From positions 1 through 33,079 of the IMG/VR virus record IMGVR_UViG_3300030450_001467: DNA of 33,079 nt. One strand, given 5' to 3'. This document shows, piece after piece, positions 1-26,242 of this stretch (within the stretch, counting starts at the first letter, position 1; each line of letters begins with the position of its first letter). The notes beneath the pieces were generated by a model. The model saw only the letters and a program-made list of their open reading frames with translations, was not told the DNA's origin and ran no database searches. The position numbers and the translations under genes are program-made. Source of the DNA: a virus.

Positions 1-101
1 TATATATAGAACCCCCCCTCCGGTACATCCACCCCTAGTGAACCGACTTCCCCTCCACGTTTGCTGGATCTTCCACCCCTCCTACTCCTGAACTGCTCAG
101 C

Positions 102-760: not shown

Positions 761-815
761 GAAACTTCAGCCCGATCCGAAATGAAACCGAGAAGCGACG
801 GATCGGTGAAGTTTC
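761..815. other. Twin hairpin motif, copy 1
   Basis: The arms 761-779 and 799-815 form a 17-bp stem interrupted by a 2-base GC bulge on the left arm. The left arm reads GAAACTTCA-GC-CCGATCCG and the right arm CGGATCGG-TGAAGTTTC. A second hairpin at 890-924 has the same stem core and the same bulge in the same place. Where the two copies differ inside the stem, both arms change so that pairing is kept. That points to selection on the structure. There is no T-run, so this is not a typical terminator. Confidence 0.65.
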
Positions 816-889
816 GACATCTCTCGTGGCCTTCACGGTTCACTACGGTTTGCCTGCACCACCAACACACACAGTTACCGCCGCTACGT

Positions 890-924
890 CAAACTTTAGC
901 CCGATCAGAGATCGGTAAAGTTTG
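890..924. other. Twin hairpin motif, copy 2
   Basis: The left arm 890-906 (CAAACTTTA-GC-CCGATC) pairs with the right arm 910-924 (GATCGGTAAAGTTTG), again with an unpaired GC on the left arm. Compared with copy 1, the G-C closing pair has become C-G, and an inner C-G pair has become T-A. Pairing is therefore kept by compensatory change. The loop is only 3 bases here, against 19 in copy 1. Confidence 0.65.
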
Positions 925-952: not shown

Positions 953-1015
953 GTCGATTCTAGTAGCGACTAACTCGCATGAGGACGCTCGTAAGTCTAC
1001 TACGGACGAATCGAC
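953..1015. other. Bipartite stem upstream of first gene
   Basis: Arms 953-960 and 1008-1015 (GTCGATTC against GAATCGAC) give 8 bp. Arms 961-966 and 997-1002 (TAGTAG against CTACTA) give 6 bp more, with a 5-base bulge at 1003-1007. The 30-base apical part can form weaker pairs. It lies just upstream of a TTGACA-like box and the first gene, so it may be a regulatory or RNA-processing structure. It does not fold as a tRNA. Confidence 0.5.
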
Positions 1016-3297: not shown

Positions 3298-3342
3298 TCA
3301 GTCGTCGCAGCGACTCTAAAGAGTGCTCTTAGGCTGCGAGCG

Positions 3343-3384
3343 GCACCTCTCTCTCTTATCCTCCCCCTTGAGAGAGAGAGGTGC
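3343..3384 (+). other. Stem-loop, perfect 14-bp stem
   Basis: GCACCTCTCTCTCT (3343-3356) pairs perfectly with AGAGAGAGAGGTGC (3371-3384) around a 14-base loop. It is the strongest stem in the hairpin chain between the early genes. It lacks a T-run. Confidence 0.65.
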
Positions 3385-4703: not shown

Positions 4704-5008
4704 TGAATAACTTAAGTGAAAGACAACGACACTTTGATGGTGTCACATACCAGCCACGCCTTGACTATGAACGGTTGTCTAATCAGTTGGAGCGTGTGAA
4801 GGCTGCGACTTTGGATACTGGTTGGTGGACGTTGCCTGCATTGACGTTGAAAGTTGGGGGATCAGAGACTTCCGTGTCTGCACGGTTGAGAGATCTGCGT
4901 AAGCAGAAGTTCGGTGGCTATCATGTTGAGAGTCGTCGTGTAAAAGGTGGGGTGTGGCACTACAGAGTGTCGCAGCCCTTGGATGAAACTATGAAAGGTG
5001 ATGTGTAA
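4703..5008 (+). CDS. Winged-helix-like DNA-binding protein
   Basis: This 101-residue protein has a probable helix-turn-helix at about 55-75 (SVSARLRDLRKQKFGG) followed by a beta-hairpin wing with GGVWHYRV (about 82-90). Proteins of this size and pattern in actinophages are usually called winged-helix or MarR-like DNA-binding proteins. It sits directly before the single-strand DNA-binding protein gene, with a 1-base stop/start overlap, so it may regulate the replication genes or take part in DNA handling. The ATG at 4703 is chosen over in-frame TTG and GTG codons just upstream because of the ATGA-type junction. Confidence 0.65.
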   Translation: MNNLSERQRHFDGVTYQPRLDYERLSNQLERVKAATLDTGWWTLPALTLKVGGSETSVSARLRDLRKQKFGGYHVESRRVKGGVWHYRVSQPLDETMKGDV

Positions 5009-8681: not shown

Positions 8682-8993
8682 GTGACAGATAAAAGCGGAT
8701 ACCTATGCATTGATTGGATCTTTGATCCTGATTCTGAAGAAGGGTATGAACCTATTGCTGGATTAAATTATTGGGAAGTGAACGCTGTTGTTGAAGCATT
8801 GAAGCCTTACTTGAAGCAGCGTCGCCAGAAGATCTCTTACTTTGAGGCTAAGGGTGAGGAGAATCGGGGGACTGAAGTGTTGCGTCAGGCTTATGATTCA
8901 GCAGAGTCGTCGTTGGATGTGTTTAATAATGCGTTGAACAAGATGCGTGATGCATATAAGGAGGATGATGAGGGAAGTTACACCACTACGTAA
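8682..8993 (+). CDS. Hypothetical protein, 103 residues
   Basis: No known family. The protein begins with a Trp/Asp-rich stretch (CIDWIFDPDSEEGYEP) and continues as a long charged helix (about 30-95) with coiled-coil character. GTG at 8682 is the start, six bases after CGGAG. It overlaps the RDF-like gene by 26 bases. Confidence 0.65.
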   Translation: MTDKSGYLCIDWIFDPDSEEGYEPIAGLNYWEVNAVVEALKPYLKQRRQKISYFEAKGEENRGTEVLRQAYDSAESSLDVFNNALNKMRDAYKEDDEGSYTTT

Positions 8994-9804
8994 CCTTGGT
9001 CGTGTCCCTGAACAGGGACGTATCAGGTTGGGAGTTAAAACTGAGCGTGCAATGAAAGCACTTGACACGTTCAGGTTTACTTCCGCTGACCATGATGCGA
9101 TCTGTCAGGTTGCTGACATCTATGGAGGAGAAGTAAATAAGTGGATGCCGCCTCGTAGTAAGCAGCAACAGTGGGAAGTGATCACTCGTGCCTCTGATAT
9201 CAGAGTGTTTCTGCCTCCGAACAGCATTGATGTTTGGTATGAGCAATGGTCTGGGGGAGGATGTCTTCGCCGTTGCGATGGAGTGACTGTCTCCATTCCC
9301 TTGAAGACTCCAGATGGCATGGACACAGACATTGAACCATGTTTATGTCAGAAAGAGCAGGGGCAGCAGAAGTGTTCTCCGTATACACGATTAAATGTGA
9401 TCCTTCCTGAGATCAAGTTCGGTGGGGTGTGGAGGTTGGAGTCTAAGGGATGGAACGCTGCGAATGAAATGCCTTCGATGGCGACCATGCTTCAGCAGAT
9501 GCAGACTATGGGGTTGATGGAGGGTCGCTTGATCCTTGAGCATCGGTCCCGTGTGTCGGGTGGTCAGACTAAGCATTTTGTTGTGCCTCGTCTGGCTATG
9601 GATACGAGTCCGATGGAGATTCTTTCTGGTGAGGCAAAGGTTGGTTCGTTGCAGCAGGCTGTTGCGGCTCCTGAACTTGAGGCAGCAGAGACTGTTATTG
9701 TTGATGCTGAGATAGTGCAGGATGTTGAGGGGTGGGATACGCCACCAGCAGGAGTATCGGTGAAGAAGAATCCAGATCCACCACCGAAATTTATTCCAGC
9801 CTAG
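8968..9804 (+). CDS. phiC31 gp3-like recombination directionality factor
   Basis: The protein resembles the gp3-like (RDF) family first described from phage phiC31, where gp3 turns the serine integrase from integration to excision. Seen here: RIRLGVKT near the start, YGGEVNKW, then the family signature WYEQWSGGGCLRRCDG (about 90-105), a CLC motif, TRLNVILPEI, and WRLESKGWNAANEM (about 145-160). The last 70 residues are a variable Ala/Glu/Pro-rich tail. The start at 8968 is preceded by AAGGAGG at three bases; 8965 and 8950 are alternatives. No integrase lies in the window, and homologues also occur in phages without one. Confidence 0.85.
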   Translation: MREVTPLRNLGRVPEQGRIRLGVKTERAMKALDTFRFTSADHDAICQVADIYGGEVNKWMPPRSKQQQWEVITRASDIRVFLPPNSIDVWYEQWSGGGCLRRCDGVTVSIPLKTPDGMDTDIEPCLCQKEQGQQKCSPYTRLNVILPEIKFGGVWRLESKGWNAANEMPSMATMLQQMQTMGLMEGRLILEHRSRVSGGQTKHFVVPRLAMDTSPMEILSGEAKVGSLQQAVAAPELEAAETVIVDAEIVQDVEGWDTPPAGVSVKKNPDPPPKFIPA

Positions 9805-21298: not shown

Positions 21299-24200
21299 TC
21301 ATTCCGGTGTACCGGGTGGACCCTGCTGCCGTTGCTGGTAATGTCGAATTGTAGAATCTTCCCACCACTCATCCATTTCTCTTGCAATTTCACTTACAGA
21401 ATCTACCAACTCTCGTGGAATTGGACTGGTACCCCTCAAATCTGGGTCCATACTCGCAACAAGAAGATCCTCAAATGTTTCCGGTGGATACGTACCATCT
21501 GGGAAATGTCTCAAAAACCTTTCAATATTTGCTTTATCTATTTCATGTAGAGGAAGTGAACCTGTTCCTTCTGATGGAGGCAATCTTCCTTCATCACGCA
21601 ATTTTCGAAGAAGATTATATCTCTGCATAAATTCTTCTTGAGCAAAGTCATACAAAGAATCTTGCGTATTACGCATAACATCAAACAACTGCTGCCAAGA
21701 CATCCAACCCAACTCAGCCAATGAAGCCGTACCGTGTGGAGTTTCCTCCCAAAAACTTTCTGGATCTAAACGTATCTCATCAAGATATTCTTGCTGTCTT
21801 TTAGCCTTAAGTTCTTCGCTCCACCCGCCCTCTTCCGCATTTCTTAACCCAGCGTCATAATCTGGATTATCCATAATCCATTGGCTATATGTTTGTTCCG
21901 GCGTACCGGGTGGACCCTTTAGCCTGTCTATTTCCGTTTCTGCCCACTGTCTAATCTCTCTAAACGGTTCATAAGTGTTTGGATCGAAATCTGGCGAATT
22001 CTTTCTATCTGATATTTCATAAAAGAAATCGTCAAGACTCTGATCGCCTCCCGGGGTCCAAGGATCGCCTCCCGGGGTCCAGCCAGAAGCCTCGGCAAGA
22101 TTATAATAATACTCAAACGGGTCCATCGGTCCCGGCCCCGAACCTTCGTCCATTAAAGCATCTGTTATTGTTTGTGCCCTTCTTGCCAGCGATTCCGGTG
22201 TACCGGGTGGACCCTCCATCCATGACGGAACCTCTTCAGGTGGACCGTGTTCAACCTGCCATTCCGCTTCCCATAACGGCTTGCCTTCAATATCATACCC
22301 ACCCGGTTCGGGTATACCTAAAAACTCATCTGCCTCTTGTTGGGTAGGTGTACCGGGTGGACCCTCCAACTTGGAGATTTGGTCAGGATCAAATACAACC
22401 CAAGAAGCCTGCTCTGGTAAACCTTCCAAATAACGCATAGTGCCATCAGGCGCACGAGATGGACCCATAAATGCTTCTCGAATATGAAGACCGTCATATC
22501 CAAAACTCTTTAACCACTCTCTTGTTATCTCATCACCACGGGTACCAACACCGGACGGATTCCCGGCAACCTCACCACCAGTCAATTCTGAATACAGTTG
22601 ATGCTGTTCATCCGTCAAAAAATCAAGGTTTGGCGCAATAGATCCACTAATGTATTCATTTGAACGCGCATATTGCGGATAGTCACGCTCCATTATCCGA
22701 CGACGCTGTGCCCGGTTTACTTCAGATCTCCAATTTTCCAAAAAAGTTCGTTCATATATATCAGCCAGAAGTCGGCTTGCCGGATCAGCCGCATCCGAAA
22801 TAGGAGGCAATCCTTCTGCTACTCGGTAAGCCTGATAACTTTCTTCATACAAATCATCCAAACCTAATTCAGATATATAGGCACGAGTACGTAAATCTTT
22901 TGTATCACGAAGGTCAGGAACTTCAAGTGGATTCTCCAGTCGAAGACGCCGTTCCATAATATTCGGACCTATAAATTCAGCACTTTCTGAACTTGTTGAA
23001 AAATGAAATCCTAAACCAGAATCAGGATTAGGAGTATTACTGCCCCATGTGCCGGGATCTAATAGATCACCGCCATATTCAAAGTCTTCAAAGTCTGCTG
23101 ATGTGCCATGATAATAAGGCGTACCGGGTGGGCCTTCCTGCGCCCCACCTCCCGGTCCACGCGACGGAGGCTCCGGTGGAACAACACCCCCCGCACCGGG
23201 AGGCTCCTCACCGGGATTCCTACGATGCCAATCCGCTAACTCATCAGCATCAGGCAAATTCGTAGTCGCATCAACCCCGTAGACATCTGCCTTTTCTATC
23301 TGATGCGGAGTCAAATCATGGGCAACATCAATATCTCTTCGCCACTGTGTATGCGCTTCGTAAAATGCGTCATACGTAGGATAATCCTGCGGCTTAGGTT
23401 CAGGCCCCTTCTTGGGATGCCTTGGAAGATCTGCACCTCCAGCCATAAACCGACCAGTTTCGTTATCCCAATTCGGAAGCATGTCCTGAAGATTGTTTCG
23501 TTCGACATAAGCCTTTACCGCTTTGTCTGCCGACTCAAACAAAGTCTCTTGTTGTAATGCTACAAGACGTTCTATAACCCGTTCAATCTCGTCTTCCGGT
23601 ACGCCCGAATCGATAGCCTGTTGTCGAAAGTTCTCCACCGATTCTGTGGGATCAAACATCAATTCGATGGACTTTTCAACTAGATCATCATCCGACAAAC
23701 CTGCCATACGTTCTGGACCATCTTCACGTATTCGAGCCAATACTTCAGGCTCCCTCAATTCAATCCTTAAATACTCCTCAATAAAGTTTTTTTGTTCATC
23801 TGCATTTAAAGAGTTAGCAAACCAACTCCTCACCGCTTGTCTTTCTGTAAACGCGCCTTCGGCAGTCGGCCAGTCCCCGTAATGCGTTCCCCAACGCGGC
23901 TCATCACCCAAGATCCTGTTGATAATAGTTTCTTCCAACTCCCAAATCGCAGCATCTCTATCAGCAGCCTCATTTATCTGCTCCTGCAAACGCGTAGTAT
24001 CGATACCTTCGATAGTTGCCAACTCATCTAAATCGCTTTGAGACAACTGACCCAAGCGGGGAAATGGAAAAGTTTCCTCTCCCGTTTCAACAAATTCACG
24101 CCAAATCCTGACGGCTTCATCAAATCGTTCTCGTGTCCATCCTAGATCCTCTAGTAACATTTCTGCAAACTCATCCATATCTACATTAGGATTATCTATA

Positions 24201-26242
24201 GTAAATTGAAATGCGTCATCTAATTCACTTAGAATAAAGTAGCCGTCTTCAGTGAATAGCCAAGGATGGGTTTCTTCAAGTTCTATCATTCTTGAACTAA
24301 AGTCAGGTTCGGTAGGACGTACTTCAGGCGTACCGGGTGGACCCTCCAACCTGCGTGGAGGCGTACCAGTAACACCCAAATACTCTTCCACCTCCCTTAT
24401 AAGATTACGCCCCTCCGCATGTTCACCAAGAGATCGCCCAAGATCATCGGCAATCTTATGGATAGCATCCCGTACTTCTGGGTCCAGATCCGACCACTCC
24501 AACAACTCAACAGTAGGATCAGGATTCAAGGCTGCAAGTTCCATGTCTAGGCGTTCCGCTTCACGGGCGACCTGATCTTCAATACGTTGAGGATCATTAG
24601 CCCATGCGGCTTTTGCCTGATCGAACTGATCGTCAGTCCATCCCAACTCATCCTTGACCTTCTGAATATCGTGTCCTGCCGGATTCTCAAATGCTCCTGC
24701 GCCTTCATACTGCTTACGGCCACTCCTATCGGTGTAATACATCCAATCTTCAGGTGTACCGGGTGGACCCTCCTGACGCATACCGCTACCAGTAAACGTA
24801 GGAGACTCATCAACAATCGCACCAAGATAATCATCAACAGCAATATGCGTACCTAACGCCTCATTCAAATCTTCATAAGACATACCGGGAAATGCTTCGG
24901 TATCGACACCCTCCATATCAAATCTGACCGTCGCATCCGCATCTCCCAATTCACGACCCAACAACTCACTAATAGCCTTATTCTCTTCAGAACCAAACCG
25001 GTGCAAAGGAGTACCCTCTGCAAACTCTCCGTGCGTAAAACGATCTTTCCGATACCACGACGGACCCTGTGGTCCACCGAATCCATCAAACGGCAACCAC
25101 ACACCCTCCATCTGACTATTAGTGCCGGTGGATCGGTAGAAAGGTTGAAGTGAACCATCTGCTTTTTGGACTACGACAAAAGGACGTTGAAGCGGTAGTC
25201 CTTCACCCATTGTTCCCTGAGTGCCCGGTCCTGCTGCTCCACCTATTTCTGAAATCTTCACCCCCTCCCCGATGTCGCGTGTAGGGGCAAGACGTTGATC
25301 ACCTAAAAAAGTAGACGATTGGCGCGCACCGGTAGGCGTACCGGGTGGACCCCCCAAGCCAGCAGGTGGAGAATCTACGACAATAGGCCGCTGTGCACGT
25401 TGCTGCCATTCATCACGTATCGGCATCCTCGGTGTATGTGGAATACGATTACGCAGTTCTCTTCTTATCGTGTCACCTAATACCTTGTCCCCCACTTGAT
25501 TACGGCCCTGTGCATAGAATCCGCGTGCCAAAGCAATACGCAACGGCCTGACAACTGCTCCACCAGTACCCAACGTAGCAATGTCAAGCAGATCCAAAGA
25601 AAACCACAAAGCGTCCTGCCAATTGTGGACACCAAGAACACGGTTCATCTGATCCCCGTAGGGATTCGGCCCGTAACCTTCTAGACGACGATCCGACGCA
25701 TGAATCATCCAATCCTTTGCACTAGCAAGATATTCCTGCGCGTCATCGGTTCGACCAAGCATCGCTGATCCGGCAGCACTAAGAACCTTCCATGTCCCAA
25801 CAGCCAAATCGATTCCCTTTTCAACCGGGTTCCACGAACTAGCCATGTGCGCCGCGTCATACTGGTTGGTCATTGGACCAGCAAGACTCCAAGCCCAATC
25901 AATACCCGCCTGCCCGTCACTAAGGGTAAGTGTCTGAGTTAAATCGTCATAAGACATATTGGCGTTCTGCTGCAACCATTGATCAACATGCGGCTGCATG
26001 TGTTCCTGAGGAATATCAAAATGATTCTCGTATGAAGCCTGCTCCATCGCAGCCGACTTGCCGTACCTCACAGCAGTAGCAAGCATGTCAGTTAACATCT
26101 CTTGCCGCTTCTTCTTTAACTCCTCCTGCTCTTTTGTAAGAAGATGCAAACGACTTGGCGAACTGGTATTCTTCGCAGCCAACGCAGCGGCCTCCGCATA
26201 ACCGGGAGAAGTTACATCAGAAAGATTTGCTAAGTCCGTCAT
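21299..26242 (-). CDS. Giant modular virion protein, polyvalent type
   Basis: A 1647-residue late protein. The N-terminal block (1-297) is helical with a hydrophobic patch (SLDLLDIATLGTGG). Eight copies of GPPGTP lie at residues 298, 492, 634, 1037, 1294, 1344, 1443 and 1641; the last ends one residue before the stop. They divide the protein into blocks of very different size. The 1043-1293 block looks like an ADP-ribosyltransferase; others are acidic helical blocks I cannot name. Multi-domain phage effectors of this style are known as polyvalent proteins, which are delivered with phage DNA. A tandem WTPGGDP repeat occurs near 1390-1405. Membership in the virion is inferred from late position and composition. 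Confidence 0.85.
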   Translation of the reverse strand: MTDLANLSDVTSPGYAEAAALAAKNTSSPSRLHLLTKEQEELKKKRQEMLTDMLATAVRYGKSAAMEQASYENHFDIPQEHMQPHVDQWLQQNANMSYDDLTQTLTLSDGQAGIDWAWSLAGPMTNQYDAAHMASSWNPVEKGIDLAVGTWKVLSAAGSAMLGRTDDAQEYLASAKDWMIHASDRRLEGYGPNPYGDQMNRVLGVHNWQDALWFSLDLLDIATLGTGGAVVRPLRIALARGFYAQGRNQVGDKVLGDTIRRELRNRIPHTPRMPIRDEWQQRAQRPIVVDSPPAGLGGPPGTPTGARQSSTFLGDQRLAPTRDIGEGVKISEIGGAAGPGTQGTMGEGLPLQRPFVVVQKADGSLQPFYRSTGTNSQMEGVWLPFDGFGGPQGPSWYRKDRFTHGEFAEGTPLHRFGSEENKAISELLGRELGDADATVRFDMEGVDTEAFPGMSYEDLNEALGTHIAVDDYLGAIVDESPTFTGSGMRQEGPPGTPEDWMYYTDRSGRKQYEGAGAFENPAGHDIQKVKDELGWTDDQFDQAKAAWANDPQRIEDQVAREAERLDMELAALNPDPTVELLEWSDLDPEVRDAIHKIADDLGRSLGEHAEGRNLIREVEEYLGVTGTPPRRLEGPPGTPEVRPTEPDFSSRMIELEETHPWLFTEDGYFILSELDDAFQFTIDNPNVDMDEFAEMLLEDLGWTRERFDEAVRIWREFVETGEETFPFPRLGQLSQSDLDELATIEGIDTTRLQEQINEAADRDAAIWELEETIINRILGDEPRWGTHYGDWPTAEGAFTERQAVRSWFANSLNADEQKNFIEEYLRIELREPEVLARIREDGPERMAGLSDDDLVEKSIELMFDPTESVENFRQQAIDSGVPEDEIERVIERLVALQQETLFESADKAVKAYVERNNLQDMLPNWDNETGRFMAGGADLPRHPKKGPEPKPQDYPTYDAFYEAHTQWRRDIDVAHDLTPHQIEKADVYGVDATTNLPDADELADWHRRNPGEEPPGAGGVVPPEPPSRGPGGGAQEGPPGTPYYHGTSADFEDFEYGGDLLDPGTWGSNTPNPDSGLGFHFSTSSESAEFIGPNIMERRLRLENPLEVPDLRDTKDLRTRAYISELGLDDLYEESYQAYRVAEGLPPISDAADPASRLLADIYERTFLENWRSEVNRAQRRRIMERDYPQYARSNEYISGSIAPNLDFLTDEQHQLYSELTGGEVAGNPSGVGTRGDEITREWLKSFGYDGLHIREAFMGPSRAPDGTMRYLEGLPEQASWVVFDPDQISKLEGPPGTPTQQEADEFLGIPEPGGYDIEGKPLWEAEWQVEHGPPEEVPSWMEGPPGTPESLARRAQTITDALMDEGSGPGPMDPFEYYYNLAEASGWTPGGDPWTPGGDQSLDDFFYEISDRKNSPDFDPNTYEPFREIRQWAETEIDRLKGPPGTPEQTYSQWIMDNPDYDAGLRNAEEGGWSEELKAKRQQEYLDEIRLDPESFWEETPHGTASLAELGWMSWQQLFDVMRNTQDSLYDFAQEEFMQRYNLLRKLRDEGRLPPSEGTGSLPLHEIDKANIERFLRHFPDGTYPPETFEDLLVASMDPDLRGTSPIPRELVDSVSEIAREMDEWWEDSTIRHYQQRQQGPPGTPE
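22042..22081 (-). repeat. 21-base tandem repeat coding WTPGGDP
   Basis: GATCGCCTCCCGGGGTCCA occurs at 22042-22060 and 22063-22081, giving WTPGGDP then WTPGGDQ in the 1647-residue protein. It has the same 21-base period as the WGSRNPN repeat two genes downstream. Confidence 0.6.
22365..23117 (-). other. ADP-ribosyltransferase-like domain inside giant protein
   Basis: Residues 1043-1293 begin YYHGTSADFEDFEYGG (H1045), continue with GLGFHFSTSSESAEF (1076-1090) and end with GYDGLHI (1248-1254) and WVVFDPDQISK (1281-1291). This order (HGTS, G-x-G-F-x-F-S, YDG, then a V-V-F-x-P-x-Q-I end) is what I know from ART-PolyVal-type ADP-ribosyltransferases of phage and conjugative elements, which modify host proteins. 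The domain sits exactly between two GPPGTP copies. The catalytic set H-x-Q/E is inferred from pattern, not proved. Confidence 0.65.

Follow-up and report, generated by a model that had tools for sequence, protein, structure and literature searches.

Two similar hairpins, each with an unpaired GC on one arm, lie in a gene-free region of a viral genome, and the question is whether they are copies of one recurring element or parts of something larger. The window analyzed here is the whole 33,079-base IMG/VR virus record IMGVR_UViG_3300030450_001467. It carries a rightward early block (SSB, a Cas4-like nuclease and a recombination-directionality-factor-like protein) and a leftward structural block (major capsid, endolysin and very large virion-side proteins), and the GC skew changes sign between these divergent blocks, at the gene-free region. 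The protein encoded at 8947-9801 (+) matches the Pfam Gp3-like recombination directionality factor (E 2.6e-34); this points to a temperate relative of the serine-integrase type, and no integrase was identified among the genes of the 33,079-base fragment. A WhiB-like regulator encoded in the window hints at an actinobacterial host, and a search of GTDB genomes with the leader pattern and the capsid found nothing from which to assign one. One virion-side protein of 1647 aa (21299-26242, -) contains the peptide GPPGTPE in many spaced copies.

Isolate phages gave only distant matches, to the capsid (about 26-28% identical) and a phosphoesterase, and no DNA match to the gene-free region. Relatives were collected with SSB, the major capsid and conserved-DNA patterns as baits; the first genes were too divergent to find relatives. 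The closest relative, L064, has an SSB 95% identical to that of the window phage.

Both hairpins fold as the sequence-only reading had described them, sharing the unpaired GC and differing in loop length (19 and 3 nt). On the plus strand, hairpin 1 (761-815) reads GAAACTTCA-GC-CCGATCCG, a 19-nt loop and CGGATCGG-TGAAGTTTC, that is, 9 bp, the GC bulge and 8 bp, with an alternative CCG/CGG mini-stem possible inside the loop. Hairpin 2 (890-924) reads CAAACTTTA-GC-CCGATC, the loop AGA and GATCGG-TAAAGTTTG, with 9 bp, the bulge and 6 bp. On the minus strand, the probable RNA strand for both, the bulge falls on the 3' arm. The stems consist of 17 and 15 Watson-Crick pairs without a single wobble, and the hairpins fold at -21.8 and -14.2 kcal/mol. 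Against dinucleotide shuffles the z scores are -5.0 for hairpin 1 and -5.6 for hairpin 2, with none of 200 shuffles as good. A scan of all 33,079 bases for Watson-Crick stems that have a one-sided bulge of 2 nt and 8+6 or more pairs returned exactly these two, and none in 30 dinucleotide-shuffled genomes. The hairpins are not terminators, again as proposed: neither is followed by a T-run, and a scan of 1-1500 for intrinsic terminators (a G+C-rich stem, then a U run) was empty.

Hairpin 1 is a paralog of hairpin 2. Thirteen of the 15 shared pairs are identical, and the other two differ on both arms (G-C/C-G at pair 1, C-G/T-A at pair 8), with no one-sided difference. The two pairing-preserving differences that had first drawn attention to the locus are thus borne out; for paralogous copies in one genome they amount to only two independent double changes. 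This pattern of double changes, lacking any one-sided intermediate, is also what might be left by template switching during DNA replication, in which one arm is copied onto the other and perfect stems arise without selection for structure. Such a process tends to erase asymmetry, however, and the 2-nt bulge survives in both copies.

The proposal that the hairpins represent one recurring bulged element, such as a binding site, a replication hairpin or a packaging signal, found no support. A covariance model of both copies, the check proposed for finding more of them, recovered only the two starting hairpins (54 and 43 bits on the minus strand, weaker on the plus strand) and no third copy in 88 related sources (987,628 bases). 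An exact scan for the left-arm motif in 2.9 million viral contigs yielded 8 matches, none with the right arm present, and these were therefore rejected as chance. The motif is also absent from L064. Judged by the refutation that the sequence-only reading had itself named, the relatives are without the element. As far as these searches reach, the bulged hairpin motif is not a conserved element and occurs only in the window phage. Two hairpins downstream of a gene in L068 and L069 share the architecture, with a left-arm bulge of 2 nt (AA); they are located elsewhere in the genome and were not taken as homologs. Separately, an apical loop like GAAAGAGCGU recurs in hairpins in and near the gene-free regions of L068 (2344-2386, 2436-2480), L069 (2416-2449), L232, L235, L079 and L237, some of them with a 2-nt left bulge.

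These results bear on a DNA-level explanation, in which the locus is a replication origin, recombination site or packaging site and the palindromes act as double-stranded dyads or single-stranded hairpins. The location between divergent gene blocks, where the GC skew changes sign, would suit such a site, as would the about equal stability of the hairpins on both strands. Against it stands the lack of conservation of the hairpin sequence in relatives.

What the relatives do retain is the position, not the hairpin itself. Hairpin 2 forms one arm, P2, of a three-way junction at 866-1062 (197 nt) that is closed by the long-range helix P1; like the hairpins, its helices probably belong to the minus strand. 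The left arm of P1 (866-881) is CACACACAGTTACCGC, within which CACACACAGT is identical in five phages, and the right arm (1047-1062) is GCGGTAACTGAGTGTG, with 15 of 16 pairs formed. Inside it, a second helix, P3, pairs 933-951 (933-936, 938-943, 945-951; carrying TATCAC) with 1029-1046 (1029-1035, 1036-1041, 1043-1046; carrying GTGATA). There is also an inner helix and module at 953-1015, recognized from the sequence, in which 953-960 pairs with 1008-1015 and module M2 is formed by 961-971 with 994-1002. Hairpin 1 is found about 50 nt to the left of P1, where the structured region continues.

Unconstrained folding closed P1 in all five phages (the window, L102, L074, L069 and L068), and the junction domains have z scores of -6.7, -3.9, -6.7, -5.0 and -8.4, respectively. 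In L064, the counterpart region (z -8.9) has a shifted TGTGTGTC pairing. The sequence of P3 is TATCAC/GTGATA in the window and AGCACAT/ATGTGCT in L068. The slot taken by hairpin 2 holds unrelated hairpins in L074 and L069 and none in L102 and L068, so hairpin 2 is a replaceable side arm.

In a hand-assembled alignment of few and related sequences, P1 and P3 on the minus strand are paired in 95% of cells across the five phages, with double changes at three pairs, compared with at most 51% in slid controls. The earlier claim that base pairing is maintained is thereby supported, and more strongly than the letters of one genome allowed, since covariation between phages extends to the long-range helices that surround hairpin 2. 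Two covarying hairpins in one genome can point towards structure missed by sequence search alone. On the plus strand, 86% of the cells in P1 and P3 are paired; G-U pairs present on the minus strand only account for the difference, P1 having seven of them against none on the plus strand. From this asymmetry it follows that the RNA probably runs leftward.

Other comparisons of relatives add to the picture of the strand. Counting pairs that recur in three of four foldings, the 5' part of the L068/L069 region shows seven Watson-Crick double changes and two changes that are A-C on the plus strand and G-U on the minus strand. Between L207 and L218 there are six double changes, while five changes keep pairing on the minus strand only and one on the plus strand only. 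L074 and L102 differ by three double changes on the minus strand and four on the plus strand, and each strand gives two wobble changes. In a third group of relatives, a distinct hairpin folds with six G-U pairs on the minus strand and three on the plus strand. Over all long helices of 14 regions, wobbles show no strand bias (77:77 at helices of at least 8 pairs, a threshold at which the comparison is uninformative, and 12:23 at at least 10). Taken as a whole, the wobble evidence gives moderate support to a minus-strand RNA.

The asymmetry in P1 speaks against a pure DNA element, as a 7:0 ratio is not expected for DNA. Helices overall contain few wobbles, which would suit both a DNA element and template switching. 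Nevertheless, the three-way junction, with arms more than 100 nt apart, and the recurrent asymmetric internal loops look like RNA, and we regard a site acting at the DNA level as improbable. Template switching is less probable still, and we give it little credence, as the position and pairing of P1 and P3 are kept across distant phages, partly via G-U intermediates.

The asymmetric internal loops recur in several relatives, as modules M1 and M2. On the minus strand, M2 (window 961-1002) reads AGUaGACU/AGUCGCU, a helix containing a U-G pair and a bulged A, and it recurs in six other phages (L069, L074, L102, L075, L207 and L218), where its two strands come in either order and enclose different inner stems. 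The pair CGUAGCAAUC...GAUUGCACAG likewise recurs in L068, L069, L074 and L102. Reuse of the same internal loops in different helices would be typical of structured RNA. Searches of other phages with M1, M2 and M3 patterns with free spacers returned mostly chance matches, which were set aside.

The gene-free region as a whole (366-1090, about 725 nt) has a z score of -7.7 against shuffles, and its fold suggests that it marks the approximate extent of a non-coding RNA gene on the minus strand. In relatives the structured region spans 320-850 nt, with the lower value (about 320 nt) in L064. A sliding 200-nt scan gave strong z scores at 1-200 and 301-650 and unremarkable ones at 601-1100, because the junction needs its full 197 nt. 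That the region is free of genes, as read from the sequence at the outset, was confirmed: 14 relatives contain no homolog of any frame tested in 1-1090. The longest frame, a plus-strand ORF at 61-918, was rejected as a gene, having neither a Pfam family nor such a homolog. Rfam models matched neither the junction nor the gene-free region, in the window or in relatives. For a minus-strand transcript no clear promoter or terminator was found, the promoter scan performing at chance level.

In all five phages, P1 ends a few tens of nt short of the first rightward gene's start codon. This placement raises the alternative of plus-strand transcription, with the region serving the rightward early operon as a structured 5' leader. 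Its hairpins would then affect transcription or translation in cis, for instance by antitermination; hairpins of this kind are common in early phage leaders. The better pairing of P1 on the minus strand and its G-U pairs there argue against a leader, as does the length of 700-850 nt, which is long for one, and the scan upstream of the region turned up no plus-strand promoter. We therefore consider a leader unlikely, although somewhat less so than a DNA site.

Several other elements were noted around the region. A leftward promoter-like element at 1-33 (-), defined by pattern only (GATGTRCC, about 13-17 nt, TATATA), is conserved in about 14 phages and has a run of G or C in its spacer; in about 14 relatives GTGTCWGG comes after TATATA, outside the window. 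The gene-free region lies upstream of this element, from which the leftward gene block, to the left of the RNA, would be transcribed. Beside the leftward operon, left of the window start, an element of about 150 nt (GCGAACCCTTATCAGGTTC..GTTCGCCCGTCA..; e.g. L074 3520-3670, L102 3100-3230) is strongly conserved in about 15 phages. It folds better on the minus strand and is likely a second structured leader RNA.

Two further matches are to known RNA families. At window 3300-3379 (+) a candidate Pistol self-cleaving ribozyme scores 33 bits (gathering 34.5, E 0.0019) and contains a perfect stem of 14 bp; it is kept in L064 (4340-4416) at the same score, and the P2 pairing of the window copy looks weaker. 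L064 also has, at 4730-4824 (+), a tmRNA match of 56.8 bits, above gathering and only 95 nt long, which comprises a tRNA-like domain with both ends and has no room for the tag-coding part. This short tmRNA-like gene lies about 2.6 kb away, and the match was not found in the window.

Both hairpins, then, are real, and they most likely branch off a far larger folded, non-coding RNA that uncultured marine phages keep between two divergent gene blocks. In its full form, which we favor with modest confidence, this explanation makes them peripheral stem-loops of one large modular RNA of about 366-1090, probably leftward, that serves as a trans-acting scaffold. The RNA would be encoded in the divergent intergenic region and transcribed from the minus strand, divergent to the early operon and directly against its first rightward gene. 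P1 and P3 enclose the hairpin-2 slot in the junction, and the molecule would act in trans as a folded scaffold whose side arms, such as hairpins 1 and 2, may provide variable contacts to the RNA itself, to other copies or to protein. We hypothesize that the second hairpin copy came from a duplication inside the RNA, after which the arms drifted yet stayed complementary. The much shorter region of L064 counts against this explanation and leaves the idea of one RNA family of fixed size unsupported. The unremarkable 200-nt scores over 601-1100, the wobble count over all long helices and the failure to find a clear minus-strand promoter or terminator weigh on the same side.

Known phage RNAs offer points of comparison for both the hairpins and the larger fold. 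The put sites of phage HK022 are two bulged stem-loops in early leaders; as antitermination RNA within the nascent early transcript, they suppress termination. The window resembles them in having two similar bulged stem-loops beside an early operon, and differs in that its stems belong to a far larger fold and that wobbles favor the other strand. ROOL resembles the window fold in being large, structured and found in phages and prophages, but no Rfam covariance model for it matches here, and helices and host setting differ.

GOLLD forms a homo-oligomeric cage, a 14-mer; for both GOLLD and ROOL, whose structures were recently solved, we know of no function. GOLLD is typically (not obligatorily) near tRNA genes, whereas the window has no tRNA gene, and neither the window nor its relatives have an Rfam match at a permissive E-value or at the gathering score. 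Its conserved region is 3', whereas the conserved junction here would lie 5' on the minus strand. The likeness lies in other features. GOLLD is a phage-encoded large ornate RNA with covarying stems, poor sequence conservation and one domain more conserved than the rest (PMC12286853). Here too a multi-helix, non-coding fold of hundreds of nucleotides occurs in a virus record that includes genes for a major capsid protein and an endolysin, its sequence poorly conserved while its stems covary and one domain more conserved than the remainder. The structured region, about 725 nt here and 320-850 nt in relatives, may or may not correspond to the length of around 800 nt of GOLLD, depending on where a transcript would end. 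By analogy, the window RNA may be called GOLLD/ROOL-like in setting, and we do not claim membership. Tentatively, it could belong to an undescribed class of large modular RNAs of marine phages, lying divergently to the early operon and marked by a conserved three-way junction, recurrent bulged-A modules and freely exchanged side hairpins, perhaps forming RNA-only complexes as GOLLD and ROOL do. If true, this would add a further, seemingly unrelated large RNA that is small in some relatives, and hence a comparative handle on what such RNAs do.
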